A program made the position numbers and the translations under genes. The notes beneath the pieces are model-generated. The model worked only from the letters and a program-made list of their open reading frames with translations. It was not told the DNA's origin and ran no database searches. This document shows, piece after piece, positions 435-31,281 of a stretch of 64,000 nt of DNA (the stretch's first letter is position 1; each line of letters starts with the position of its first letter). The DNA lies in contig JACTUC010000001.1 in assembly GCA_015660995.1 (NCBI GenBank), positions 1-64,000 of the forward strand, read 5' to 3'. The stretch comes from Candidatus Methanomethylicaceae archaeon. Lineage in GTDB: Archaea; Thermoproteota; Methanomethylicia; Methanomethylicales; Methanomethylicaceae.

Positions 435-934
435 TTTATCTTCTCCTTCTCGACTCTCTTCTTCAGATTCTGCAGCAGCCCGCCATCCTTAAGGATATCG
501 AGCAGGAACTGGGGGTACCTCTCCGCCTCCACCGCTTCCCCATTCTTCCTCTCTATCCTGCCATTCTCCAGGTCTACAGCAACGATCTCCCCTTCCTTCA
601 GAACATCCCTAGCCCTCGGCGAGACGACAGCTGGGAGACCGATGTTTATTGCATTCCGATAGAAGATCCTGGAGAAGGACCTCGCCACAACCGCCCCCAC
701 TCCAGCATACTTGAGCGCGAGGGGGGCGTGCTCCCTGCTCGAACCGCATCCGAAGTTCTTCCCTGCAACGATGATATCCCCTATGGCTATCTTCGAGGAG
801 AAGTCTGCCACCAGTCCCTCTAGCGCGTGCTCTGCCAGTTCGTTGGGATCTGTAAGGACCAGGTACTTCCCAGGGAGTACTACATCAGTGTCAACATTGT
901 CACCAAAGAGCCATACTTTACCCTTTAATATCAT
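431..934 (-). CDS. leuD: 3-isopropylmalate dehydratase small subunit
   Basis: The 167-residue protein is the swivel domain of the aconitase-like isomerase that converts 2-isopropylmalate to 3-isopropylmalate. It shows the usual DNVDTD start, the GKNFGCGSSREHAP core near residue 60 and ARSFSRIFYRNAINIG. The substrate loop reads YLVL at residues 24-27. In characterised archaeal enzymes YLV-type loops go with isopropylmalate and YLRT with homoaconitate, so leucine synthesis is the better guess, though a dual role with the nearby LysW pathway is possible. It lies 2 bases after leuC and overlaps leuB by ATGA. Confidence 0.9.
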   Translation of the reverse strand: MILKGKVWLFGDNVDTDVVLPGKYLVLTDPNELAEHALEGLVADFSSKIAIGDIIVAGKNFGCGSSREHAPLALKYAGVGAVVARSFSRIFYRNAINIGLPAVVSPRARDVLKEGEIVAVDLENGRIERKNGEAVEAERYPQFLLDILKDGGLLQNLKKRVEKEKIK

Positions 935-936
935 GC

Positions 937-2193
937 CTATCTGCCCCCAAAGTACTTCCTCGGATCCGCAAGCTTTCCTTCAATCGCAGTTGCAGCAGCG
1001 GTCTCAGGAGACACAAGATAAACCTTGGATGATGTGCTGCCCATCCTACCGATGAAGTTCCTATTTGAAGTGCTCACGCAGTTTTCGCCATCAGCAAGGA
1101 TGCCCATGTGACCACCGAGGCAGGGGCCGCAGTTCGGGTTGCAGACTACGCCGTCAGCATCCATGAATATCTTGATGTATCCTCTGGCCTCGGCCTCGAT
1201 ATAGACCTTCTTGGAAGCTGGTATGACCACCAGCCTCGTCCCTGGGCTTACCTTCCTACCCTTCAGGATCCGCGCCGCAGCTTCAAGGTCCTCAAGCCTC
1301 CCGTTGGTGCAGGAGCCTATGAAGACCTGATCGGCTGTGATCTCCCCTGCCTCGCTTACCAGCTTCACATTGTCGACCGAGTGGGGTATGGCTACCTGGG
1401 GCTCGAGCTCCTCCAAGTCTACTCCAATTACTTTCATGTACTCAGCATCTGAGTCGCTGGCGACTGACGCTGCCTTTACGCCTGTGTAATCCAGCGTCCT
1501 TCTGTCGGGGTTCATTATGCCCGTCTTGCCCCCCATCTCTATTGCCATATTGCAGATAGTGAGCCTTCCGTCCATGCTCATATTGGCTATACCATTGCCT
1601 GTAAACTCTGCGGCGCAGTAGCGGGCTCCATCAACCCCAACGGTCCCGATGATCTTGAGGATCAGGTCCTTGGCGGATACCCCTTTCTCCATCTTCCCGG
1701 TTATCTCGAACTTTATGGTCTCGGGCACCCTGAACCAGAGCTCTCCCGTAATGAAGACTGATGCCATCTCGGTCGACCCTATTCCAGTGGCGAACGCCCC
1801 GAGAGCACCTAAAGAGCAGGTGTGCGAGTCCGCACCAACAACCAGCATGCCCGGCTTCACATAGCTCTCCGCGAGGATCTGGTGGCAGACTCCCTGCCTG
1901 CCGACGTCGTGATAATTCTTCAGGCCGTACTTCTTTGCATACTCCCTGAGCTGCTTGTGCAATGCAGCCGTGACAGTGGAGTTCGCCGGGACCTGGTGGT
2001 CTAGTATGATCACTACACGGTCCGTGTCCCAAGGCCTGTCGTACCCAACCTCCTTCAGCACGTTGAGGGTGAGGGGGCCCGTCAGGTCATGTATCATGGC
2101 GAGGTCTATCTTTCCCACCACGTACTCGCCCGGCTCGACCCGATCCCTTCCTGACGCTCTGGCCAAGATCTTTTCGGAGATAGTCATTGCCAT
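937..2193 (-). CDS. leuC: 3-isopropylmalate dehydratase large subunit
   Basis: This is the Fe-S dehydratase large subunit that pairs with LeuD. The expected [4Fe-4S] ligands are visible as Cys in GSCTNGR (about residue 295) and in the CNPNCGPC stretch (about 355 and 358), and GADSHTCS is present. The ORF track starts 38 codons upstream, but that extension covers the TATA region. ATG at 2193 (MAMTISEK) or 2187 gives 416-418 residues, the normal length for archaeal subunits. It heads the leuC-leuD-leuB operon and is transcribed away from the PadR gene, which may therefore be regulated jointly. Confidence 0.9.
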   Translation of the reverse strand: MAMTISEKILARASGRDRVEPGEYVVGKIDLAMIHDLTGPLTLNVLKEVGYDRPWDTDRVVIILDHQVPANSTVTAALHKQLREYAKKYGLKNYHDVGRQGVCHQILAESYVKPGMLVVGADSHTCSLGALGAFATGIGSTEMASVFITGELWFRVPETIKFEITGKMEKGVSAKDLILKIIGTVGVDGARYCAAEFTGNGIANMSMDGRLTICNMAIEMGGKTGIMNPDRRTLDYTGVKAASVASDSDAEYMKVIGVDLEELEPQVAIPHSVDNVKLVSEAGEITADQVFIGSCTNGRLEDLEAAARILKGRKVSPGTRLVVIPASKKVYIEAEARGYIKIFMDADGVVCNPNCGPCLGGHMGILADGENCVSTSNRNFIGRMGSTSSKVYLVSPETAAATAIEGKLADPRKYFGGR

Positions 2194-2228
2194 TAAAAAT
2201 CGCCGACCCTCGCATATCTGTGTGGTTA

Positions 2229-2259
2229 GATTTAAAAATTTCCTATACAAGGAATAGGA
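2229..2259 (-). promoter_or_regulatory. leuC promoter with adjoining dyad
   Basis: On the minus strand an A/T-rich TATA-like box (AATTTTTAAATC, about 2229-2240) sits roughly 40 bases before the chosen leuC ATG. Directly upstream is TTCCT-ATACA-AGGAA (2240-2254), which overlaps a second dyad TCCTAT/ATAGGA (2241-2259). The dyad covers the place where the BRE and an activator or repressor would bind. The regulator is unknown. The PadR gene next door is the obvious candidate. Confidence 0.45.
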
Positions 2260-2318
2260 TGAGAGACCGACCAACTCAACTATCGTTGCCTTTTTCTGAA
2301 CGTGCATTTAACGCAAGA

Positions 2319-2344
2319 TTCATATATCGGAGTCAAATATATCG
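2319..2344 (+). promoter_or_regulatory. padR promoter, tandem ATATATCG
   Basis: The octamer ATATATCG occurs at 2322-2329 and again at 2337-2344. The first copy lies at the right distance to be the TATA box for a start at 2359. The second would overlap the transcription start, a plausible place for autorepression. The promoter and repeat are seen directly. The regulatory role is inferred. Confidence 0.4.
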
Positions 2345-2358
2345 AAATACGTAAGCCT

Positions 2359-2904
2359 ATGTACTGCGATCCTGTCTCAAAGAGCCTCGAGTGGAGCAGG
2401 AAGGGCTACATGGGCATGGCCCTGTTATTGATGATCAACGAAAAGTCAATGACTGGGTATGACATCATGCGGCTAATGAGCGAGATTACTGAAGGGCACT
2501 GGAAGCCAACCCCAGGAGGCGTGTACCCCGTCCTGAAGAGGCTGGAGGGCGGGGGTCTCGTCCATGGCGAGTGGTCGGCAAAAAAGGGGAGGCGCAGGAA
2601 GGCCTACGTGATCACAGATGAAGGCAGGAAGAGCCTAGACAGGGTCCTCCTAAGGCAGAGCGAGATTGCCTTTGGCATTAACAGGCTCTTTGACAGCTTT
2701 CTGAAGGACATATTTGAGCTCTCCACCCCGCAGGTGTCCCCGCCAAGCATCTTCACAATGGTATTCCAAGAGGAGATGCCAGACAAAGCCAAGGATATGG
2801 AGGAGCGGCGCGAGATGATAATTAGCCTCATTCAATCCCTGCAGCAGACATTAGGCATTCTTGACGAAAGGCTAAAAGCCGCTAAGAAAAAGTCTACTTT
2901 TTAG
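2359..2904 (+). CDS. PadR-family transcriptional regulator
   Basis: The protein has 181 residues from ATG at 2359 (MYCDPVSKSLEW). The longer ORF of the track would begin inside the promoter. The N-terminal half is a PadR winged helix: ALLLMINEKSMTGYDIMRLM, then PGGVYPVLKRLEGGGLV and the basic wing GRRRKAYVITDEGRK. The C-terminal half is helical, as expected for the dimerisation arm. PadR proteins are usually repressors that respond to small ligands or stress. The target cannot be read from sequence; leuC and the gene itself are nearest. Its tail overlaps the convergent lysX gene by 11 bases. Confidence 0.85.
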   Translation: MYCDPVSKSLEWSRKGYMGMALLLMINEKSMTGYDIMRLMSEITEGHWKPTPGGVYPVLKRLEGGGLVHGEWSAKKGRRRKAYVITDEGRKSLDRVLLRQSEIAFGINRLFDSFLKDIFELSTPQVSPPSIFTMVFQEEMPDKAKDMEERREMIISLIQSLQQTLGILDERLKAAKKKSTF

Positions 2905-3757
2905 CAAGGTTCAGAGCATACTCCACGATCTTCCCAGGTATGTCCACCTCTGATACCGACATCGCCCCCTTGAATTCCACGGTGCTGTTGACCTCGTGTA
3001 TTACCTCACCACTCTTTGTTTCCATCGCGTCGACCCCAAGCACGCCTCCGCCTACGGCGCTGGCTGCCTTCAGGATCATCTCCCTCAGCCTCTCGTTAAG
3101 CGAGCAGACCTCAGCCCTACCGCCTCTGGCGATGTTGGTTCTCCAGTCGTCAGGCGCTGAATACCGGTATATCGAGGCAACGATCTCGTCTCCAACGACG
3201 ACAGTTCTGATGTCCCTCGGCGGCCTATCTACCATCTCCTGAAGATAGTATATCTGGTAGAGGGGGTTGCCCATGTCTTCTCTATGCTCCATTATTGCTT
3301 GGGCTGTCTCGCGGTCCTTCAGCGGCGCTATGAGCCTCCCCCAGCTCCCGAAGACTGGCTTGATCACGGCTGGGTAACCCATCTCTTCAAGTGCCCTCAT
3401 CGCCTCCTCTGTTGTGAACGCCACGACGGTCTTTGGGGTAGGTATGCCACATTTCGCGAGCATTATGCTCGACAGGAGCTTATTGCCGCAGAGGCTCGCA
3501 ACGCTGTACCTGTTGATGACCCTGACGCCCTTGCTCTCGAGGATGGCAGTTATGTGGAGCCCCCTGAAATAGCTCACGCACCTCTCCAGCGCCACATCCC
3601 CGAAGATGTCGCCTTCACTTGATGGATCAGTGATCGTGAGATGCAGGTCTTTCGCGTCTATGCTTCTAAGATAAATACCCCTCTTCTCAGCCGCGTTGAT
3701 AAGTTCCTTCTCTTCAGTCCTTATCCTGTCGTAAATAAGAGAGAGGGAGGGGCACAC
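2894..3757 (-). CDS. lysX: LysW-dependent ATP-grasp ligase (LysX/ArgX)
   Basis: This 287-residue RimK-like ATP-grasp enzyme joins the terminal Glu of LysW to the amino group of alpha-aminoadipate (lysine route) or glutamate (arginine route). Visible features are the GYPAVIKPVFGSWGR nucleotide-binding segment (about residue 130) and the metal-site EVNSTVEF near residue 258. Translation starts at GTG 3757 behind GGGGAGAG, which lies in the end of lysW, so the two genes are coupled. Whether it acts on aminoadipate, glutamate or both cannot be decided here. The remaining lysYZJK genes are not in the window. Confidence 0.88.
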   Translation of the reverse strand: MCPSLSLIYDRIRTEEKELINAAEKRGIYLRSIDAKDLHLTITDPSSEGDIFGDVALERCVSYFRGLHITAILESKGVRVINRYSVASLCGNKLLSSIMLAKCGIPTPKTVVAFTTEEAMRALEEMGYPAVIKPVFGSWGRLIAPLKDRETAQAIMEHREDMGNPLYQIYYLQEMVDRPPRDIRTVVVGDEIVASIYRYSAPDDWRTNIARGGRAEVCSLNERLREMILKAASAVGGGVLGVDAMETKSGEVIHEVNSTVEFKGAMSVSEVDIPGKIVEYALNLAKK

Positions 3758-3760
3758 GTT

Positions 3761-3931
3761 TTACTCTCCCCAGTCTTCCCCTTCAGACTCTGCCACCTTA
3801 AGCTCAAAATTGCCATTCTTGTCCTTCGAGGCCTCGAGCTCGGCACCGCAATCCTTGCAGCTTATGATCTCGCCCTCGATGACTTCCTTGACTTCAATAT
3901 CTCCATCGCATTCTGGACATTTAAGTTTCAA
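3761..3931 (-). CDS. lysW: Amino-group carrier protein LysW
   Basis: This small acidic carrier protects the amino group of biosynthetic intermediates. A zinc ribbon formed by CPECDG and CKDCGA is followed by the diagnostic EDWGE C-terminus, whose last Glu is the attachment point. The track starts at TTG 3946, but a GGAGG at 3940-3944 lies inside that extension and is 8 bases before a second in-frame TTG at 3931. Starting there gives 56 residues, close to the 54 of known LysW proteins. lysX follows after 3 bases. Confidence 0.9.
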   Translation of the reverse strand: MKLKCPECDGDIEVKEVIEGEIISCKDCGAELEASKDKNGNFELKVAESEGEDWGE

Positions 3932-3964
3932 TGCCTTTTCCTCCAAATGATTGTTTCCACACTA

Positions 3965-3994
3965 ACAGAAATTTATGTTTATAAAACTTTCTGT
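3965..3994 (-). promoter_or_regulatory. lysW promoter with inverted repeat around the TATA box
   Basis: A perfect 7-bp inverted repeat, ACAGAAA at 3965-3971 and TTTCTGT at 3988-3994, encloses the sequence TTTATAAACAT (read here on either strand), which is at the right distance to be the TATA box of lysW. The arrangement would let a dimeric regulator block TBP/TFB access. Lrp-family LysM controls lysW in Sulfolobus, but no such gene is in this window. Confidence 0.5.
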
Positions 3995-4025
3995 AAATTA
4001 TTCTAGCTAGATATTGGCTTCCCAT

Positions 4026-4997
4026 TCAATAATCCGCAGTCTTCTGCTTCAGCTGCTCCGAGACCGCGCTGTCAAGTTCCTGTACAAACTGCTGGAACTT
4101 ACCCTTCGGGACCCTCGCGCCAGCGGCCATCGGGTGCCCCCCACCGCTCCCGCCGACCCTCTCTGCTACTTGGCTTAGCGCTTTGTTCAGGTCGATAGCT
4201 TCTGAGTGGGTCCTCAGGCTCATGTCAACGAAGTCCTTCCTGGTCTCCGCTCCGATCCCCACAAGTGTGCCAGCTGAAGCCTTGGAATATATTGCGCTCT
4301 TGCTCAGCGACCAATCGATGTCCCGTACGTAGGCGACGTTGCCCTGCACCTTAACCAAGTCCTTCATCTTCTTCCTCATCCACTCCTCGTTTATGCTCTC
4401 TTGGACCGCTCTCGTCACCAATCTCTCATCGGAGCTTGGGAGTTTGTTGCTCGCTAGGCTAAGGGCGATCTCCCTCTTGAAGTCATGGTTCCTTCCTATG
4501 GTGTCAATCGCCTGGATCAGCATCCCGCTCTCGAGGTAGAGAAGGCTCTTGTCCCAGTCCCACATCCACTTCTGCACATTATAGGTGTCGTCGAGGTAGT
4601 CGCCGATTGCACCATAGATTGCGACCCTGTTCATGTCGGACGGTATCATGGCCTGGTATTTCAGGAACGTGAGCTCCGAGACGCTTGCGCGCAGCACGTT
4701 CACGTACTCTCCCGGAAATGATCCCTGGTCGAAACCTGGCGGAATGGGATGGTGATCGATATAAAGCACGCTGGCGCCAAGGTCCCTTATCCTTCTGAGC
4801 TCCTCAATCGCCTCCTTCAGGCCTTGGGCGGGCAGGGCTATGTCGCAGACAGTCAGGTCGCCGTCCACCTGCTTCAGGTCCTCTGCAAGACCTGTGGGGT
4901 GAGTGAAGAAGAGCTTCGCCCCCTTGATTGCCGCGAGCGCTATCGCTCCAGAGCATATCCCGTCGGTATCGCCGTGGGCTAGAATCCAGTGAACCAT
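4026..4997 (-). CDS. DHH/DHHA1 family phosphoesterase
   Basis: The 323-residue protein starts at ATG 4997, close behind a TATA-like TTTTTTATC, so the mRNA is probably leaderless. The N-terminal DHH domain shows HGDTDGICSGAI, an Asp-containing CDIA segment and the YIDHHP signature near residue 100. The C-terminal DHHA1 domain ends with GGSGGGHPMAAG. The family holds Mn-dependent RecJ-type exonucleases, nanoRNases and pAp phosphatases. This short form is not the replisome GAN/Cdc45 version, which is longer. The substrate is unknown. It lies between lysW and the cdv genes in the same direction but has its own promoter. Confidence 0.8.
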   Translation of the reverse strand: MVHWILAHGDTDGICSGAIALAAIKGAKLFFTHPTGLAEDLKQVDGDLTVCDIALPAQGLKEAIEELRRIRDLGASVLYIDHHPIPPGFDQGSFPGEYVNVLRASVSELTFLKYQAMIPSDMNRVAIYGAIGDYLDDTYNVQKWMWDWDKSLLYLESGMLIQAIDTIGRNHDFKREIALSLASNKLPSSDERLVTRAVQESINEEWMRKKMKDLVKVQGNVAYVRDIDWSLSKSAIYSKASAGTLVGIGAETRKDFVDMSLRTHSEAIDLNKALSQVAERVGGSGGGHPMAAGARVPKGKFQQFVQELDSAVSEQLKQKTADY

Positions 4998-5089
4998 GGT
5001 TAACAATTAGCGTAAATGAGATAAAAAAGAGATCGAAAGCGCGGAAAGGAAACGAACAAAATGGAAAGAAAGGTCGAGAGGCTTGCCGC

Positions 5090-6310
5090 TCAGCAGGCCC
5101 TGAAGTTCTCTTCCCACATCTCGTATGCCTTTATCATGTCCGCGGTCACGCTGGGTCTCCTGCGGGTGAAAATGTCCTTGAAGTCATCTATGGTTATCGG
5201 CCTTGGCTTCGAGTTTGCATCATGGATCAGCCCCGACTCGAAGAGCTCGCCTACGACCTTTAGCTGGACTGCCTGGCAGATATCCCTCACGTCGCTGCCG
5301 GAGAATCCCTCACTTATTGTGGCAACCTCCCTTATATCCACCCCTTGGAGGTTCAGCTTTTGGGTGTAAAGCTCGAACATCTTGAGCCTAGTATCGTAAT
5401 CGGGAACTGGGACGTGAATCCTCTTCTGGAAACGGCGGATGAACCCCCAGTCCAGAGCCCACGGCTTGTTCGTGGCGCCCACGACGTAGACAGACCAGCT
5501 CTTTCCCTTGTCTATCACGCCATCCATCTCCTTGAGGAACTGGTTCCTGACCCTTATCTCGCCACCCACTTCGTTGGAGTGGAGGCCTAGCAGCGAATCT
5601 ATCTCGTCGATGAATATGATCGACGCCTCCTTGTTGGAGGCCCTCTCCCTCGCTGACCGGAAGAGCTTTGCTACATTCTTCTCAGCCTCCCCCAGCCACT
5701 TGGACATTATCGATGCCGCGTCAACCGAGTAAAACGAGGCGTCTATCTCTGTCGCAACGGCCGCAGCGGCGAGCGTCTTGCCGCAGCCAGGTGGACCGAA
5801 AAGGAGTATTCCCCTCGGCCAGCCCAGAGGAAAAAGGTCAGGCCTCTTCGCTGGGTAGACAATTGCTTCCTTTAGTGATCTCTTGACGTCTTCCAGCCCA
5901 GAGACGTCGTCCCACCTGACGCACGGCTTCTCCACAACCAGGAGGTCCTCGTATCCCGACTTCTTAGACGGCGTTGCAGTCTCAGCTGGCCTCCCTTGGG
6001 GGGACTGGGGGGCAGTAGGCTGCCTGTTCATTGGCTGCAGCTCTGGGGCGCCATAATCCTCGTCTGCCGTCTCGGCAGCAGATCCGACCTGGAGGATCTT
6101 TATCCTCTCCTGGTACATCATTGCCCTCTGGACATAGACCTTGTTGAGTTCGTAACTGGGATAGAGGTTGACCATCTTCAGGAAGGCGTCTATTGCCTTC
6201 TGGTAGTAAGTTATCGCCAGCCCCTTTGAGCCCTGCTGGTCGAGCCTTGTCGCCTCCTTGGCGTACCTTATCGCAGCATTTTCTAGTTCATTCGCCGCTA
6301 TTGCTGACAC
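5090..6310 (-). CDS. cdvC: CdvC/Vps4-like AAA ATPase
   Basis: This AAA+ ATPase remodels ESCRT-III filaments in archaeal cell division. Residues 1-75 form a helical MIT domain that binds ESCRT-III tails, followed by a Pro/Gln-rich linker (about 85-118). The AAA domain has Walker A GPPGCGKT (172-179), Walker B IIFIDEID (231-238), sensor GATNKPW and the FIRRFQKRI arginine-finger region. The C-terminal helix is as in Vps4. The start is GTG 6310 with GGAG seven bases upstream. It is 12 bases downstream of cdvB, so the two form an operon. Confidence 0.93.
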   Translation of the reverse strand: MSAIAANELENAAIRYAKEATRLDQQGSKGLAITYYQKAIDAFLKMVNLYPSYELNKVYVQRAMMYQERIKILQVGSAAETADEDYGAPELQPMNRQPTAPQSPQGRPAETATPSKKSGYEDLLVVEKPCVRWDDVSGLEDVKRSLKEAIVYPAKRPDLFPLGWPRGILLFGPPGCGKTLAAAAVATEIDASFYSVDAASIMSKWLGEAEKNVAKLFRSARERASNKEASIIFIDEIDSLLGLHSNEVGGEIRVRNQFLKEMDGVIDKGKSWSVYVVGATNKPWALDWGFIRRFQKRIHVPVPDYDTRLKMFELYTQKLNLQGVDIREVATISEGFSGSDVRDICQAVQLKVVGELFESGLIHDANSKPRPITIDDFKDIFTRRRPSVTADMIKAYEMWEENFRAC

Positions 6311-10496: not shown

Positions 10497-10554
10497 TAAT
10501 AAAGAATGCGGGGCTGATCGAAAGATCCACAGTCAATAGCATTAACGAAAACAA

Positions 10555-10577
10555 TAAAATAAAAAAAAATAAAAAAA
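10555..10577 (-). terminator. U-tract terminator for the small membrane protein gene
   Basis: A 23-base A-rich run (T-rich on the transcribed strand) lies just downstream of the stop at 10586. Confidence 0.6.
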
Positions 10578-10585
10578 GCGGGCCT

Positions 10586-10792
10586 CTAACTCTTGGAGGT
10601 GTAAGACCAAATTAGGAGCAAGATTACCATAATTATAGCTCCTAAGAGGCCAGCAATTACCCAGCCCGTCTGTGCCAATATGGGGAGCACCTTCTCCAGA
10701 TATGGGTACCCAAAGAGGCCCAGCCAGTATAATCCTATACCTAGGAAAAATCCTACTACGGCAAATGCCAATATTATTCCAGTTCTTCCCAT
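10586..10792 (-). CDS. Small two-helix membrane protein
   Basis: The protein has 68 residues from ATG 10792 (MGRTGIILAF), which has GGAGATC upstream and a TATA element ACATTTATATCC at about 10831-10843. The track start at 10831 lies inside this promoter. Two hydrophobic segments (about 4-26 and 37-62) are joined by a short loop, with a positive C-terminus. No family is recognised. It is divergent from sufS. Confidence 0.6.
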   Translation of the reverse strand: MGRTGIILAFAVVGFFLGIGLYWLGLFGYPYLEKVLPILAQTGWVIAGLLGAIIMVILLLIWSYTSKS

Positions 10793-10938
10793 TTTTTGAG
10801 ATCTCCTAATTAATCCAAATCTGCTGCCCATTGGATATAAATGTTGCTAAACAGGGAAACGCCAATAAAAATACGCTTTTCACCATAGATTTAAATCGAA
10901 AGTGCTCCCTATTCTTATCGTTGAAAATTGGTGATTGG

Positions 10939-12144
10939 ATGCTCGATGTCGAGCTTGTTCGAAAAGATTTTCCATTCCTGAAACAAGGGCGCATTTACCT
11001 CGACTCGACAGCAACTTCCCTCACGCCGGAGCCAGTACTCAACAAAATGCTCGAATACTACAGGGAGTATCGGGCGAACGTCGGAAGGGGAATATATAAA
11101 GCGTCTCAAATTGCGACAGAGGAGTTCGAGAAAGCACGAAATGAGGTTTCGCGGTTAATAAACGCAAAGCCAGAGGAAATGGTCCTTCTCCGCAACACCT
11201 CCGAGGGGATCAATCTTGTAGCAAGTGGGATCAAGCTGAAGAAGGGGGATAAGATCGTGACAACGACTCTAGAGCACCACTCCGACTTCATTGTCTGGCA
11301 GAGGGCCAGCAAGAGGTCTGGGGCTGCGCTGAAGGTGGTCGGGGCAGACAGCGAAGGCTTCATGAATCTTGCTGATTTTGAAAAAGCGATCGACGACAGC
11401 ACAAAGATCGTTGCTGTGAGCCAGGTCTCGAATGTCTTGGGCGTGAAGCCGCCGGTCAAAGAGATCGCGAAAATCGCCCATGAACATGGTGCCCTTGTTC
11501 TGATCGACGGTGCACAGTCCGTGCCGCACTCAAAAGTAGACGTGAAAGCCATCGGGTGCGACTTTTTAGCTTTTTCGGGGCACAAGATGTGTGGTCCGAC
11601 CGGCGCTGGTGGGCTCTACATGCGCGAGCTCCTCCTCGAGGAAGTCGAGCCACTCTGCATAGGCGGGGGGACCATAGAGGATGTAGGCTTGGACTATTAC
11701 AGGCTAAAAAAGGGCGCCGCAAAGTTCGAGGCAGGGACCCCGGCAATCGCCGAAGTAATAGGCATGGGTGCCGCCGCCTCTTACCTGATGAAGCTGGGTA
11801 TGCTTGAGATCGAATCACATGAACAGAAGCTCACAAAAAGGGTGGTAAAGGGGCTAGAGGAGATACCTAACCTAACGCTTTATGGGCCCAAAGAACCAGC
11901 GAAGAGGGCTGGCATATTCTCCTTCAACGTTGGCCGGCTGCACCCCCACGATTTAGCGATGACGCTGGATGTGACAGCGGGGGTCATGGTCCGCTCAGGC
12001 CACCACTGTGCCCTCCCGGTCATCAAGGAGGTAATCAAGGCTCCTAATGGCACGGTAAGAGCTTCGGTCTACATATACAACAACAACCAGGACATCGACA
12101 CATTCCTCGCTACACTCGAGGAGATATCGAGGACAATGGCGTGA
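10939..12144 (+). CDS. sufS: Cysteine desulfurase, SufS type
   Basis: This PLP enzyme releases sulfur from cysteine for Fe-S clusters or other sulfur transfer. The 401-residue protein shows the LEHHSDFIVW segment, the PLP lysine in SGHKMCGPTG and the catalytic cysteine in RSGHHCALP near residue 355, typical of SufS/CsdA. The track adds 36 codons, but a palindromic TATA (GATTTAAATC, 10888-10897) and GGTGAT before ATG 10939 fix the start. No sufE, sufU or sufBCD is adjacent. Two Cys-containing proteins follow in the same transcript. Confidence 0.92.
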   Translation: MLDVELVRKDFPFLKQGRIYLDSTATSLTPEPVLNKMLEYYREYRANVGRGIYKASQIATEEFEKARNEVSRLINAKPEEMVLLRNTSEGINLVASGIKLKKGDKIVTTTLEHHSDFIVWQRASKRSGAALKVVGADSEGFMNLADFEKAIDDSTKIVAVSQVSNVLGVKPPVKEIAKIAHEHGALVLIDGAQSVPHSKVDVKAIGCDFLAFSGHKMCGPTGAGGLYMRELLLEEVEPLCIGGGTIEDVGLDYYRLKKGAAKFEAGTPAIAEVIGMGAAASYLMKLGMLEIESHEQKLTKRVVKGLEEIPNLTLYGPKEPAKRAGIFSFNVGRLHPHDLAMTLDVTAGVMVRSGHHCALPVIKEVIKAPNGTVRASVYIYNNNQDIDTFLATLEEISRTMA

Positions 12145-25718: not shown

Positions 25719-26402
25719 CTAATCAATGAGCGGGAAAATTTCTTCTTTTATGTAGTTCAGGAACTCTGCGGGCTGGATCCCACTGAATGCGGTGACCACC
25801 GCGCTCCTGGTCACTCCTGCCACAATCCCATACCTTCTGGACTTGAAGACCATGTACCATATCGCCCCGTGGGATGAGTACTCGCTATAGAGTGAGGTGT
25901 CAGCGAGTCCGGATCCGTAGAGCGAGAGCTTGCTGATGTTTGGGATGTCCACTCCGTCGAAAAACATGACCTTCGTATCCTCAAGGTTTGATTCATGGTA
26001 CTTCTTCAAGGTCTCAGGAGAGATCTTCGCTTCTACTACGCTCCCGGCAGCAATGAAGAGGACCTTGCTCATCTGGTTGGCTATATTATTGGCTATCCTC
26101 TTCTTCTCGAGCACTATCAGTAGGATACGGTCGCCATCCTTGCTGAATTGGAAGGGGGCTTCCATTGTCTTGACAACAAGCCTCTCGCCATCCCTGTGCG
26201 AGACAGTGAATGCAATATCCTGTGAGAACAACCCCTCCAGCGAATCCGAAGTAAGCTGCAACTTGCTGATCTCGGTGACCAAGGGGACGGTCTGATCTCC
26301 AAAAGTGAACTCTTCTTCGTGTTTGTATCCCTTCAGTTTCGCCGAGATCGTCGCCAGGTCGATGTCTTCCTTAACTTTGAAGACCTTACCCGCAAGAACC
26401 AT
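25719..26402 (-). CDS. Conserved-looking soluble protein, unknown
   Basis: The protein has 227 residues from ATG 26402 (MVLAGKVFKVKED) with GGTGTTATGG upstream and TATA TTTTTATATGA at about 26434-26444. The longer track ORF would start before the TATA box. Two similar halves of alpha/beta type are suggested, with a PH-like or roadblock-like feel at the C-terminus (YGIVAGVTRSAVVTAFSGIQPAEFLNYIKEEIF). I cannot assign a family. It follows topoisomerase IB in the same direction. Confidence 0.55.
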   Translation of the reverse strand: MVLAGKVFKVKEDIDLATISAKLKGYKHEEEFTFGDQTVPLVTEISKLQLTSDSLEGLFSQDIAFTVSHRDGERLVVKTMEAPFQFSKDGDRILLIVLEKKRIANNIANQMSKVLFIAAGSVVEAKISPETLKKYHESNLEDTKVMFFDGVDIPNISKLSLYGSGLADTSLYSEYSSHGAIWYMVFKSRRYGIVAGVTRSAVVTAFSGIQPAEFLNYIKEEIFPLID

Positions 26403-26433: not shown

Positions 26434-27984
26434 TCATATAAAAAGTTGACCGCTTTCGATTTGGGCTTGCTGATCCTTATCCACCCAGGCGAATCTTCTC
26501 TGCAGGGACTTCGAATAGTAAAGTTTCCAATCAAAATCTATCCTCCTTCCCCAGTCTGCATACACCCTCGGGTCGATATAGTTCCTCAGCGACGTGTTGA
26601 GGTTGTAGTCCTTCGTCGCTTGCATGGACTTCACCTTAAGGTCCAGTTCCTTTATCTTCTCAGCCTTTGCCTTCTTCTCTCTCAGAACCTTAAGGCGCTC
26701 TTTCTTCTTATTGAGGCTCTCCTCCCATGTCTTGGGGAGCTTACGCTTATGGTTGCATACCTTGGCTGCTTCTAGGTTCGCCATCGTGGCGCAGTATTTC
26801 TTGATGTACTTCGGGCTCCTCTTGCTCACCTCTGCCCTCCCAAGGGCTTCCTTGGTAGTCGTGGATGCATGATAAGTCCTGAAGACCTTCGCAGTCAGCC
26901 CTGGCATCACCTCTGAGAGGTATGCGTTTACTTTCTGCGATCTCACGCCATTGAATATCGTCTCGTTGCCCTCGGCCATGAACTCCTTTAGGTTGCGGAC
27001 GATGATCTCAGGTGGCTTTATGGTGCTCACCCACCTGACGCAGTCTTTCCCTAGAAAGTCCAGCGTGATTGAGCCGTCTGGCTGGAATGTAATGTGCTCT
27101 GTGCGCAAGGTCGTCGCACCCACTGTGTCTGCCTCATCTTCCCCCTTCTCGTCGCCCACCCTCATCTTGAGGTTATCAATGAGGTAGCAGACGGTGGCAA
27201 CCTTTCTCTCAAGCTGGTCGTGGGATTCTAGCCCCCTTGCTATGTGGACCCTGACCTTCTCGATCTTCTTCTGAAGCTCCCACGCCTTCTGGTACTTCTC
27301 CATGTCCCTGACCTGCTTGACGTACGCAGTATCGGAGAGCCAGACGTACTTCATTTTATCCCTAAGCTTATCCCTCCAGCTGGCAATCCAGAGATATGAA
27401 GGATCAAAAACAATGCATTTCCATGATCCCCCTAATGGGGGTTTAGGAACGGGTGCATCGGGTGACAGGTTAAGTGTTATCTCCTCCCCCCTTATTCCCG
27501 ATTTCCAGCTTCCCCTGAGGGGATGGTCGCCCCTGCCAACAAAAATTGATGCAGGCTCAACCATGTAGTTGCCTATTTCCATGGGGATCCCGTTTACCAT
27601 TGCAATACCGTACTTCTGCCTATTCTCTTCCCTAAGCCTCTTCCTGTACGCTGCAAGTGTCTTCTTCTTCTCCTTACCCATCCCTTCCTTCCTCGCCCTC
27701 TCTGATTCGACCCAATTCGATACAGCAGAGAAGTCGAAGTCCTCCGGTCCAACCTTCCCTTTTATGCCAAGCGCACCGCCGAAATCCCTGAAGAAATTCT
27801 TCACAAAGACCTCGTCCTTCGGGTAGTCAGTTATGAGTTTCCTGACCCAGGCGACAGCCATCTCCTCCTGCTCCGGGGTGAGCGGAAGCTCCCTGCCTCG
27901 GAACCTTATCTTAAATCCAACAGGATTGTAAACAGGGATGAGCACTCCATTATGGCTCAGTCGCCTTACCTCGAACTTTTCCAT
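26434..27984 (-). CDS. topA: DNA topoisomerase IB (eukaryote type)
   Basis: This enzyme relaxes positive and negative supercoils by a 3'-phosphotyrosine intermediate. The protein has 516 residues from ATG 27984 (GTGGAG upstream). The N-terminal core has FNFFRD-like and VSNWVESER motifs, the catalytic core has LKMRVGDEKGEDEADTVG, LDFLGKDCVRW and KVFRTYHAS, a Lys-rich linker follows (about 400-445), and the C-terminus carries the active Tyr in SLRNYIDPRV (about 469). Type IB enzymes of this form are a hallmark of Nitrososphaeria and relatives. It is divergent from the SMC operon. Confidence 0.95.
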   Translation of the reverse strand: MEKFEVRRLSHNGVLIPVYNPVGFKIRFRGRELPLTPEQEEMAVAWVRKLITDYPKDEVFVKNFFRDFGGALGIKGKVGPEDFDFSAVSNWVESERARKEGMGKEKKKTLAAYRKRLREENRQKYGIAMVNGIPMEIGNYMVEPASIFVGRGDHPLRGSWKSGIRGEEITLNLSPDAPVPKPPLGGSWKCIVFDPSYLWIASWRDKLRDKMKYVWLSDTAYVKQVRDMEKYQKAWELQKKIEKVRVHIARGLESHDQLERKVATVCYLIDNLKMRVGDEKGEDEADTVGATTLRTEHITFQPDGSITLDFLGKDCVRWVSTIKPPEIIVRNLKEFMAEGNETIFNGVRSQKVNAYLSEVMPGLTAKVFRTYHASTTTKEALGRAEVSKRSPKYIKKYCATMANLEAAKVCNHKRKLPKTWEESLNKKKERLKVLREKKAKAEKIKELDLKVKSMQATKDYNLNTSLRNYIDPRVYADWGRRIDFDWKLYYSKSLQRRFAWVDKDQQAQIESGQLFI

Positions 27985-28138
27985 CCGATTCTCCACGGTT
28001 AGTAATTTGAAATTAGCTTATTACATAAGCTTTACCCATAGAAATTTGAAAGGATCGCCATCACTGTGGCTGACCTAATGGCTCCCCGCCGGAGGCAGGG
28101 CAACGCTACAGACATATTTATAAGAAGCTCGAAAAGAA
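27985..28138. promoter_or_regulatory. Divergent topoisomerase IB / SMC intergenic with GC-rich hairpin
   Basis: TATA-like CATATTTATAAG (28113-28124) precedes the SMC start by about 20 bases, implying a leaderless mRNA. Between the two promoters is a GC-rich block with two small dyads, GCCA-TCACTG-TGGC (about 28050-28064) and CCCCGCC-GGA-GGCAGGG (about 28084-28100, one mismatch), standing out from the AT-rich surroundings. No coding potential is seen there. Confidence 0.4.
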
Positions 28139-29932
28139 TTGAAAAAGCTCAAAGGGGGGCATGCTACGTCGAAGCTCACCATTCTTGAGGTCATTCTAGA
28201 GAACTTCATGTCCTATGAGTACGCTAGAGTGAACCTTAGGCGGGGGCTTAACCTTATCTCCGGCCCCAACGGTGCCGGAAAATCCTCTATCCTCTTGGCA
28301 ATATCAGTTGCAACAGGTCAAAGCTACACCGAGCGATCGCGGAAGCTCGCAGATCTCATCCGGAGGGGGAAGGAGACCGCCAGGGTGACCCTCGTCCTCA
28401 ACAACAAGGTCGAAGACGGGAAGAGGCCTGCCCCGCTCATAAACAGCGATCTCCTATCGGTCTCTAGGTACCTGAAGAAGGACGGGACGTACTGGTTCGA
28501 GATCAACGGCAGGGAGGTCAGCAAGTTCGATGTGAACCGCCTCTTCAAGAGCGTCGGCATGAACCCCGACAACATGCTTATCATAATGCACCAGAACATG
28601 ATCGAGGAGTTTGCAATCACATCACCGGAGGAGAAGCTGAAGATGGTCGAGGAGGCCGTTGGCTTCTCCCAGTACCGCAAGGCGATATACGAGGCTGAAG
28701 ATAAGCTCAACCGCATACTGGGCGAGGAGGAGGCGACTTCTCAGCTCTTGGCAAGCGCCGAGCAGACCCTTGCCTATTGGAAGGAGCTGAATGACAAGTA
28801 CAATGAGAAGAGAGCCCTCCTCGACCGCAAGGCATACCTCGAGAGGGAGCTGATCTGGGCGCAGATCATCAAGAATGAGCGGTCCGTCACTCAGATACAG
28901 GAGAAGATTCTTCTCAAAAGCTCCCAGCTGGAAGACCTCGATAAGGGAACTACGCTGAAAGAGAGGGAGGGAAAAGGCCTATGGGAGTCCTACCTCGGGC
29001 TCAAGGAGAAGTTCCGACTTCTGCTCATGGAACAGCGGAAGCAGGACGAGGAAACGCTCAAGGAACTCGGTGCAATAGACGAGCGGCTCGATGCCACGGT
29101 CCAGAACTATGTCGATGTCAAGGTTAGAGAAGCGATAGATCGATACCGCATCAGGGAGCTGGAGAAGGACCTCAAGGAGCTGAGGTCGTCACTCGCCGAA
29201 GCTCAAGCCCTCTTGGAGGAGTCAAGCAGGCTTATCGACAAGGCTGGGGAGCGGCTCGAGACACCAAGATCGATACAGGACATATCCGACGAAGCGAAGT
29301 ATGTGAACGCCCATCTACTCTCGCTGGGTGAGGTGCCAGACGACTCACCTTCAATGTACCAGACGTACCTAAAGACCTACGGCGAGCTTAAACAGAAGGC
29401 GGACGTGGTAGGCGAGAACCGCAAAAGGACGATTGAGGAGCTGGACGACAGGAAGAAGATCTGGAAAGGAGTCATGGAGCGCCTCATAGTCGAGATCAAC
29501 CCGACGTACAGCGACGTCTTAGGCAAGGTCGCCGGCATTGGCACGGTCCGCCTTTCCAACATGGACGACGCCGACCGTTCAGGAATCGAGGTCACCGTTG
29601 GCTTCAAAGGATCTTCCCCTGTTATATTAGACGCATACGCCCAGAGTGGAGGGGAGAGGGCTGTCGCAACGATGGCCTTCCTGCTCGCACTTCAGCACAA
29701 CCTCAAATCGCCAGTCCGGGCTGTCGACGAGTTTGACGTCCATATGGATCCGCACAACAGGGAATCCATGATGAAGATGCTTTTCTCCTTCATGAATGAG
29801 AACGAAGACGTCCAGTTCATTGTCATTACACCCAGCCAGCTTAGTGCGGTTGGCGAGTTCGCCAACATCATCTTTGTACAGAATGTCCACGGTAGGTCGG
29901 AGGTGGCGAAGGCTGCCACAGCAACAGCGTAA
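28139..29932 (+). CDS. Compact Smc5/6-like SMC ATPase
   Basis: The 597-residue ATPase has a full SMC head pair: Walker A GPNGAGKSS (42-50), Q-loop region MHQNMIEEFAITSPEE (150-165), signature QSGGERAV (502-509), Walker B VRAVDEFDVHMD (526-536) and ITPSQL (563-568). DEFDVxMD is the Smc6 form of Walker B, while EFAxxSPEE and the WKGVMERLIVEINPTYSDVLGKVAGIG segment resemble Smc5. Only about 275 residues of coil separate the heads (full SMCs have about 800), and I see no hinge. The start is TTG 28139. It heads an operon with a kleisin-like and an Nse3-like gene. Rad50/SbcC is less likely: there is no zinc hook CxxC. Confidence 0.85.
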   Translation: MKKLKGGHATSKLTILEVILENFMSYEYARVNLRRGLNLISGPNGAGKSSILLAISVATGQSYTERSRKLADLIRRGKETARVTLVLNNKVEDGKRPAPLINSDLLSVSRYLKKDGTYWFEINGREVSKFDVNRLFKSVGMNPDNMLIIMHQNMIEEFAITSPEEKLKMVEEAVGFSQYRKAIYEAEDKLNRILGEEEATSQLLASAEQTLAYWKELNDKYNEKRALLDRKAYLERELIWAQIIKNERSVTQIQEKILLKSSQLEDLDKGTTLKEREGKGLWESYLGLKEKFRLLLMEQRKQDEETLKELGAIDERLDATVQNYVDVKVREAIDRYRIRELEKDLKELRSSLAEAQALLEESSRLIDKAGERLETPRSIQDISDEAKYVNAHLLSLGEVPDDSPSMYQTYLKTYGELKQKADVVGENRKRTIEELDDRKKIWKGVMERLIVEINPTYSDVLGKVAGIGTVRLSNMDDADRSGIEVTVGFKGSSPVILDAYAQSGGERAVATMAFLLALQHNLKSPVRAVDEFDVHMDPHNRESMMKMLFSFMNENEDVQFIVITPSQLSAVGEFANIIFVQNVHGRSEVAKAATATA

Positions 29933-30719
29933 AGAGGAATATTACGAGGAGCTCGCGAGAATAATCAACCTTTGCCAGAGCATAAGGACTAAGAGCGACG
30001 ACCCCTTTCTGGTCGATGTTCCCCAGAAGCTCATGATCCTAAAGAAGATCCTACCCAATTGGAAGGCGTTAGACGATCTGCTCATGGATGCTGAAGCGCT
30101 AAAAGAGATTTCCCTGATGGTCAAGCTTCAGAGCGACTGGGTGAAGCGTCGAGCGTCGGGTCTATTCATAGACCCGTTCCTCGTTGAGGTCAAAATAAAG
30201 CTGCTAAGCAAGGAGTCCCTGAGCTCCGCACTCCTCTCATCATGGCACCCACTTGTCTCCTCGGAACAGCTCACGCCGAAGCGCCTCTCAGAGTCAATGG
30301 ACTACTGGAACATTCTTCTGCCTCTTTCGCAGAGGATGAAAGAGCTGGAAGCAGCTAGGGAGATAGAAGAGAAGGTCCTCACAGTCTCCGATCTGATCCG
30401 CTTGAAATTCCTCTCAGATAGAGTCTTCAACGATGAGGTCACGCGCCTTCAGACAGAGCTGGCGGAGACCACGAAGAGTGGGCCCGTTGATTACTGGGGG
30501 TTCATAGTCCGGGACACATACGAGGATACGGTAATGCGAGCCTACGCGCTAAGCTTCCTTATATCCAATGGTACCGCCAATCTTGTGATAAACCCAGTTG
30601 AGGAGACCATGATGGTCGAGGTTATATCCGGCGCAATCCCAAGGAAGCTCGGGCGGTCTATCCCCATATCAGTATCATATCAGAAATGGAAGGAGATTCG
30701 AGGTCAAAAAGATGAGTGA
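29886..30719 (+). CDS. Putative kleisin subunit of the SMC complex
   Basis: The protein has about 277 residues and overlaps the SMC end. ATG 29886 is used, but an unusual start nearer 29916 behind GGAGG cannot be excluded. It is almost all helical. The middle part (ALKEISLMVKLQSDWVKRRASGLFIDPFLVEVK) recalls the scaffold helices of ScpA. The end (EDTVMRAYALSFLISNGTANLVINPVEETMMVEV) has the helix-turn-strand rhythm of the kleisin C-terminal winged helix. Similarity is weak, and the call depends on position between an SMC and a KITE-like gene. Confidence 0.5.
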   Translation, partial: STVGRRWRRLPQQQRKEEYYEELARIINLCQSIRTKSDDPFLVDVPQKLMILKKILPNWKALDDLLMDAEALKEISLMVKLQSDWVKRRASGLFIDPFLVEVKIKLLSKESLSSALLSSWHPLVSSEQLTPKRLSESMDYWNILLPLSQRMKELEAAREIEEKVLTVSDLIRLKFLSDRVFNDEVTRLQTELAETTKSGPVDYWGFIVRDTYEDTVMRAYALSFLISNGTANLVINPVEETMMVEVISGAIPRKLGRSIPISVSYQKWKEIRGQKDE

Positions 30720-31281
30720 AGACGCCACGATTTCCAAAAAGCTAAAAAAGGCTTCCCAGTTGTTGCTCTACCAACACCACAGACTACCCGGGGCAAAGGG
30801 GTGGGAGCTGAAGAAGTTCGTCGGCAAGGACTACATGAAAGTCGTGAAGCTGCTTGAGAGGAGGCTTGACGATCTTGGCCTTGAAGTGAAGTTGGTTTAT
30901 GAGGACGGTCTCGATCACCCCAGCCCAATAGAGGACGATCTCGAGCAAGCGAGATTCTACATATTGTCAAAATCCCCGATACAGAGCGGCGAGGCGTCTC
31001 TCTCCGGCTGGAGAATAGATACATTAGCTGTCTTGGCTGCCGCGCTGGCTTTCATAACCTCGAAACAGGGAAGAGCAACTAGGAGCGAAGTGGAAGATCT
31101 CCTGAATGAGAAATTCCCTTACTGGAAAGTTGATCAGGACCTAAACCGCTTCATCAGGAGGGGCTACCTCGATGAGGACGAGGAGAGCAACCTCTTTGTT
31201 GGTTGGCGGACAAGAGCGGAAATTGACAGAAAGATCCTTCTTGGCATCATTGCAGGCTCGTCGCCAGAGGTATTGCAGTAG
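30712..31281 (+). CDS. Nse3/MAGE-like KITE protein
   Basis: The 189 residues overlap the previous gene by 8 bases. Two winged helices are suggested. WH-A (about 10-90) ends in LERRLDDLGLEVKLV and ARFYILSK, like the LxxxFGLxLxEV and YxLV pattern of MAGE domains. WH-B (100-185) runs LAVLAAALAFITSKQGRATRSEVEDLL to LFVGWRTRAEIDRKILLGII, matching the MAGE run of LIFMNGNRASEEE and [20 protein letters not shown] in order and spacing. In Smc5/6, Nse3 binds the kleisin Nse4 and DNA. ScpB is the bacterial equivalent. Confidence 0.65.
   Translation: MSEDATISKKLKKASQLLLYQHHRLPGAKGWELKKFVGKDYMKVVKLLERRLDDLGLEVKLVYEDGLDHPSPIEDDLEQARFYILSKSPIQSGEASLSGWRIDTLAVLAAALAFITSKQGRATRSEVEDLLNEKFPYWKVDQDLNRFIRRGYLDEDEESNLFVGWRTRAEIDRKILLGIIAGSSPEVLQ

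Follow-up and report, generated by a model that had tools for sequence, protein, structure and literature searches.

The window, the 64,000-nucleotide stretch of DNA analysed here, carries a plus-strand operon of three translationally overlapping genes, which encode an SMC ATPase, a kleisin and, as the third gene, a KITE protein. These genes and their conserved neighbours are as follows.

25719..26399, minus strand: conserved 226-aa protein (alignment A6), no significant Pfam match
26434..27996, minus strand: eukaryote-type topoisomerase IB, divergent neighbour
28139..29932, plus strand: SMC ATPase, predicted Smc5/6 type, 597 aa, short arms
29883..30719, plus strand: Nse4-like kleisin, 278 aa
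30712..31281, plus strand: KITE protein, tandem winged helix, Nse3/MAGE- and Nse1-like, 189 aa
33123..36029, minus strand: helicase, Lhr-like by inspection, neighbour in 32 of 100 loci

The KITE reading frame is real: it begins with ATG, its stop codon ends at position 31281, and it is a conserved gene rather than a chance frame, since 38 of 61 relatives carry homologues with 41-90% identity and the family profile matches 125 of 300 genomes of the phylum Thermoproteota, over the full length and with E-values from 1e-93 to 5e-48. Homologues with a named source belong to Methanomethylicia (Verstraetearchaeota), Bathyarchaeota, Nitrososphaeria/Thaumarchaeota and Hecatellales. This puts the window within Methanomethylicia of the Thermoproteota or close to it, and its closest relatives (L029, for example) are labelled Candidatus Methanomethylicota. 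The KITE start overlaps the kleisin stop (ATGAGTGA), and the kleisin start in turn overlaps the 3' end of the SMC gene. For the kleisin, ATG at 29883 was deduced from the starts of its homologues and preferred to CTG at 29913, which it replaced; a start at 29796 was dropped, as the homologues do not reach that far. The SMC start, TTG at 28139, is uncertain; by eye, there is a TATA-like TTTATAA some 20 nt before it.

Conservation of the operon extends across Thermoproteota. Searches with a profile for each family showed the kleisin adjoining the KITE gene in 109 of 110 loci, which are not all independent, some being duplicates of one genome. SMC, kleisin and KITE are all present in order in 96 of the 110, and several of the loci without all three are cut by contig ends. 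At one locus (L022, genome G044) the operon is rearranged, with the SMC gene on the other strand, a few kilobases from the kleisin-KITE pair. A search for mobile carriage of the operon found none.

The first-pass annotation had proposed that the KITE gene encodes an Nse3/MAGE-like protein in an archaeon, citing the peptides SKQGRATRSEVEDLL, LFVGWRTRAEIDRKILLGII, LGLEVKLV and YIL. All four are present in the 189-aa reading frame, and the MAGE-type GWR..AE turn is conserved in 97 homologues, in which W165, R166 and E170 are invariant and A169 and D172 are kept in at least 90%. An AlphaFold2 model built with 26 relatives (pLDDT 86, pTM 0.75) consists of two tandem winged-helix-like halves. When this model was compared with the PDB using Foldseek, MAGE-G1/NSE3 came first and second (5hvq_D, 2.2e-6; 7dg2_C, 1.4e-5), with alignments that span the full length, and NSE1 chains came third and fourth (5hvq_C and 7dg2_A), followed by yeast Smc5/6 subunits; MAGE-A4 was seventh, MukE ninth, ScpB tenth and the JetABC KITE eleventh. 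The fold search thus ranks MAGE/Nse3 ahead of MukE and ScpB, in line with the check set by the first-pass annotation, a preference for MAGE/Nse3 over ScpB, TrmB and generic winged helices; the TM-scores to Nse3 are modest, at 0.37-0.57. The human and 7dg2 chains were identified with human query sequences, which matched the PDB chains completely.

Profile searches point in the same direction. MAGE is the Pfam family most often matched by the KITE relatives (11 of 97, best 2.7e-4) and Nse1 is matched by three, and the 25 Pfam families listed for these 97 relatives include neither ScpB nor MukE; the KITE of the window itself matches no Pfam family. Over 250 genomes, the 13 best matches of the MAGE model (E ≤ 0.003) all fall on the KITE gene, mostly at profile positions 118-206, which correspond to the C-terminal winged helix. 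The curated cut-off of this model (PF01454) is crossed in one of the 250 genomes, at the KITE gene, and the other best matches are sub-threshold. Scores of the archaeal KITE profile are marginal: 11.9 bits for NSE1 and 7.4 for NSE3, against 7.8 for the best of 352 decoys and at most 1.9 for ScpB. The profile matched no PDB sequence, and its alignment by hhalign to small NSE3/MAGE, NSE1 and ScpB sets gave nothing; these sets held few vertebrate sequences, the ScpB set included a wrong reading frame, and NSE3 failed to match NSE1 as well, so the comparison has no power at this sample size. The protein has no cysteine in its 189 residues and hence no RING, so that a C-terminal RING-like domain of the Nse1 type is absent. 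Taken together, the model and the profiles support the proposed likeness, with Nse1 nearly as close as Nse3: the predicted structure is a tandem winged-helix protein nearest to Nse3 and Nse1 by fold. Since Nse1 is nearly as close, the KITE may derive from before the split of Nse1 and Nse3. The MAGE assignment is made much stronger by the two genes upstream, an SMC and an Nse4-like kleisin.

Nse4_C (PF08743) was matched by 59 of 65 members of the kleisin family at E ≤ 1 (best 5.8e-7) and exceeds its curated cut-off in ten of 250 genomes; the kleisin of the window falls below it (14.5 against 26 bits). Of the Nse4_C matches at E ≤ 0.01, 57 of 60 lie within 1 kb of a KITE gene. Strong Nse4_C matches (6e-7 to 7e-7) at G113:C19:19680 and G204:C1:339166 lie about 2 kb from the KITE gene without adjoining it, and each of these two genomes has a second, weaker kleisin match elsewhere. 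Against PDB sequences, the kleisin profile ranked yeast Nse4 (3.2e-5) and human EID3/NSE4B (8.8e-5) above ScpA (0.04). The AlphaFold model, for which the 268-aa version starting at 29913 was used, is of low confidence overall (pTM 0.38); with it, Foldseek placed Nse4 first over the full length (7qcd_F, 8.9e-5) and ScpA third, the C-terminal domain superposing on the ScpA winged helix at 2.4 Å. Both profile and model thus predict an N-terminal helical part followed by a C-terminal winged helix of the Nse4/ScpA type.

The SMC protein contains a Walker A motif GPNGAGKSS, the signature QSGGER and a Walker B region RAVDEFDVHMD. Its family profile matched Smc6 (5e-64) and Smc5 (1e-63) in the PDB more strongly than the best canonical SMC (5e-48). 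In a comparison of the two head parts, for which canonical SMCs were taken from the same phylum, yeast Smc6/Smc5 scored 96/94 bits with this family against 50/54 with canonical SMCs for the N-terminal part, and 87/115 against 32/76 for the C-terminal part. A maximum-likelihood tree of the heads grouped the family with Smc5/Smc6 (UFBoot 99), excluding canonical SMC and Rad50, a grouping to be taken with caution as Smc5 and Smc6 came from yeast only and the branches are long. Judged by sequence, the heads are nearer to Smc5/Smc6 than to canonical SMC. With 565-686 aa (median 650), the family is about half as long as the canonical SMCs, at about 1190 aa; no hinge domain was detected, and a CxxC zinc hook was found in the arm region of none of 80 sequences.

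The source genome is 98% complete and contains one SMC of the Smc5/6-like type and one KITE. The SMC_N model exceeds its cut-off at the operon and at one further locus, on contig C2 (40.4 bits against 40), a 266-aa frame whose size suggests a short ABC-type ATPase; among the long SMC-family genes, the next one is a Rad50, which carries a zinc hook. SMC_hinge has no match in the genome, so a hinge-type SMC is absent at this completeness. ScpA gave no match above its cut-off, with one sub-threshold match away from the operon, and for the Nse2 zf-Nse model the sole match is no better than chance and contains an internal stop. From these model searches, the Smc5/6-like operon appears to be the only SMC complex of the cell. 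Among about 250 genomes, in slightly different samples for the two genes, the KITE gene occurs in 112 and a hinge-type SMC in 97, with both in 44, the KITE alone in 68 and the hinge-type SMC alone in 53. Where both occur they can be close: on one 13-kb contig (L166, G225:C29), a canonical SMC (532-4059, plus) and ScpB (about 4752-5192, plus) lie in opposite orientation to an Smc5/6-like operon whose KITE is at 10536-11063 (minus), and canonical SMC/ScpB are similarly near the operon in G094 and G053. Five genomes of the same class as the source (G023, G026, G030, G032 and G039, each more than 90% complete) apparently have neither the KITE operon nor a hinge-type SMC; SMC loss has thus reached different stages within this class.

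The surroundings of the operon are also partly conserved. The gene for the 226-aa protein usually lies immediately next to the SMC gene, in divergent orientation, and is found in 31 of 100 loci from several classes, with about 41-79% identity across loci; the topoisomerase IB gene stands between the two only in the 11 loci of the Methanomethylicia type. The 226-aa protein is a candidate for a further component or functional partner of the complex. Together with the helicase and the topoisomerase IB, it hints that the complex acts in DNA topology or repair.

Tandem winged helices are common to all KITEs, and the MAGE likeness could therefore reflect a shared fold, with the protein being an ordinary KITE of the ScpB type within a divergent Smc-ScpAB complex. 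MukE and ScpB do appear lower in the Foldseek list, and among the kleisin's matches the C-terminal winged helix of ScpA ranks third. We consider this improbable. The ScpB model finds nothing in the genome even at E ≤ 10, yet it is sensitive enough in this phylum, as it recovers genuine ScpB (about 1e-35) from relatives that have a canonical SMC, often alongside the Smc5/6-like operon. Moreover, each of the three subunits, taken independently, has an Smc5/6 subunit as its top match, and it is Nse proteins, not ScpB, that approach the KITE profile, albeit weakly.

An SMC-based system directed against plasmids or viruses, such as Wadjet, Lamassu or MADS, is another candidate, as Wadjet is likewise an SMC-kleisin-KITE assembly and the SMC here matches the PADLOC models for MADS mad3 and the LmuB ATPase. 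The operon, however, has no nuclease gene, and neither the KITE nor the kleisin matches any PADLOC model, which leaves a defence function very improbable. That the KITE is a transcription regulator merely located beside SMC genes can hardly be correct: winged helices are common in regulators and some of the 97 family members weakly match PaaX or HTH models, but the position after the kleisin is kept in all but one of the loci, and the whole-length structural matches are to Nse3 and Nse1 rather than to regulators.

Our preferred reading, which we regard as very probable from the sequences and predicted models, is that the operon encodes a homodimeric, short-armed archaeal SMC-kleisin-KITE complex of the Smc5/6 type. 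In the structures of Smc5/6, Nse4 is the link between the SMC subunits, DNA and the KITEs; DNA lying above the engaged heads is held in place by Nse3 (PMC9191643). With a single gene for each in the genome, SMC and KITE would both act as homodimers. The kleisin would form the bridge from neck to cap between two ATP-engaged heads and carry the KITE pair, which would close the clamp over DNA atop the heads, as Nse3 does in Smc5/6; overall, an ATP-driven DNA clamp would be assembled from a pair of identical SMC heads, a single kleisin and two KITEs. Given the lack of a recognizable hinge domain, the SMC protomers would have to pair through the tips of their coiled coils or through the heads and the kleisin. 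The dimer forms, the pairing of hinge-less arms and any loop extrusion are what we infer by analogy. The complex probably serves chromosome organization and the repair of topological or recombination problems in an organism without a canonical SMC.

The operon bears on whether the Nse subunits of Smc5/6, the MAGE family among them, arose in prokaryotes. In a broader reading, on which our judgement is evenly divided, it is a living prokaryotic form of the Smc5/6 ancestor, with a homodimeric SMC and one KITE, from which eukaryotes derived Smc5 and Smc6 and, by duplication, Nse1 and Nse3; the MAGE family would then have an archaeal root, and short-armed, hinge-less SMCs could be the sole SMC complex of a cell. 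An archaeal complex of this kind, with three genes, would place the SMC-Nse4-KITE module before eukaryotes, provide a minimal system for Smc5/6 chemistry and imply that a cell can live with a single short-armed SMC complex. It would also contradict the report, from a study of archaeal Smc-ScpA, that archaeal SMC complexes are generally without a KITE (PMC7055376).

Several known systems can be compared with this operon. The archaea-specific SMC-related proteins (ASRPs), which include coalescin and Sph, for the most part carry a zinc hook and lack conserved neighbours (PMC9389158). The present SMC is likewise a short archaeal SMC-family ATPase, but it lacks the CxxC motif, belongs to a fixed operon and scores 57 bits with the ASRP model against a cut-off of 300. 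With Smc-ScpAB and the archaeal Smc-ScpA (PMC7055376) the operon shares the SMC-kleisin architecture and the ScpA-like C-terminal winged helix, although its proteins go unrecognized by the ScpB and ScpA models. Archaeal 'SMC5/6-related' SMCs are already known (Yoshinaga and Inagaki 2021, cited in PMC9389158); that work, as cited there, concerns SMC proteins and makes the same grouping with SMC5/6, and going by this description the present SMC may belong to the same clade. In the open-access literature, which our search covered, Nse4- or Nse3-like partners in archaea are not described, and descriptions of the kleisin and clamp subunits of Smc5/6 come from eukaryotes only; the priority of the archaeal partners as new is uncertain. 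From eukaryotic Smc5/6 (Smc5, Smc6, Nse4 and Nse1/Nse3) the archaeal system differs in its single operon with one SMC and one KITE in place of SMC and Nse1-Nse3 heterodimers, in its SMC of 565-686 aa with neither long arms nor a detected hinge, and in having no RING and no match to Nse2. What it has in common with that complex are SMC heads nearest to those of Smc5/6, with a Walker B/D-loop sequence, DEFDVxMD, that resembles Smc6, a kleisin of the Nse4 type and a KITE whose predicted fold is nearest to Nse3 and Nse1.
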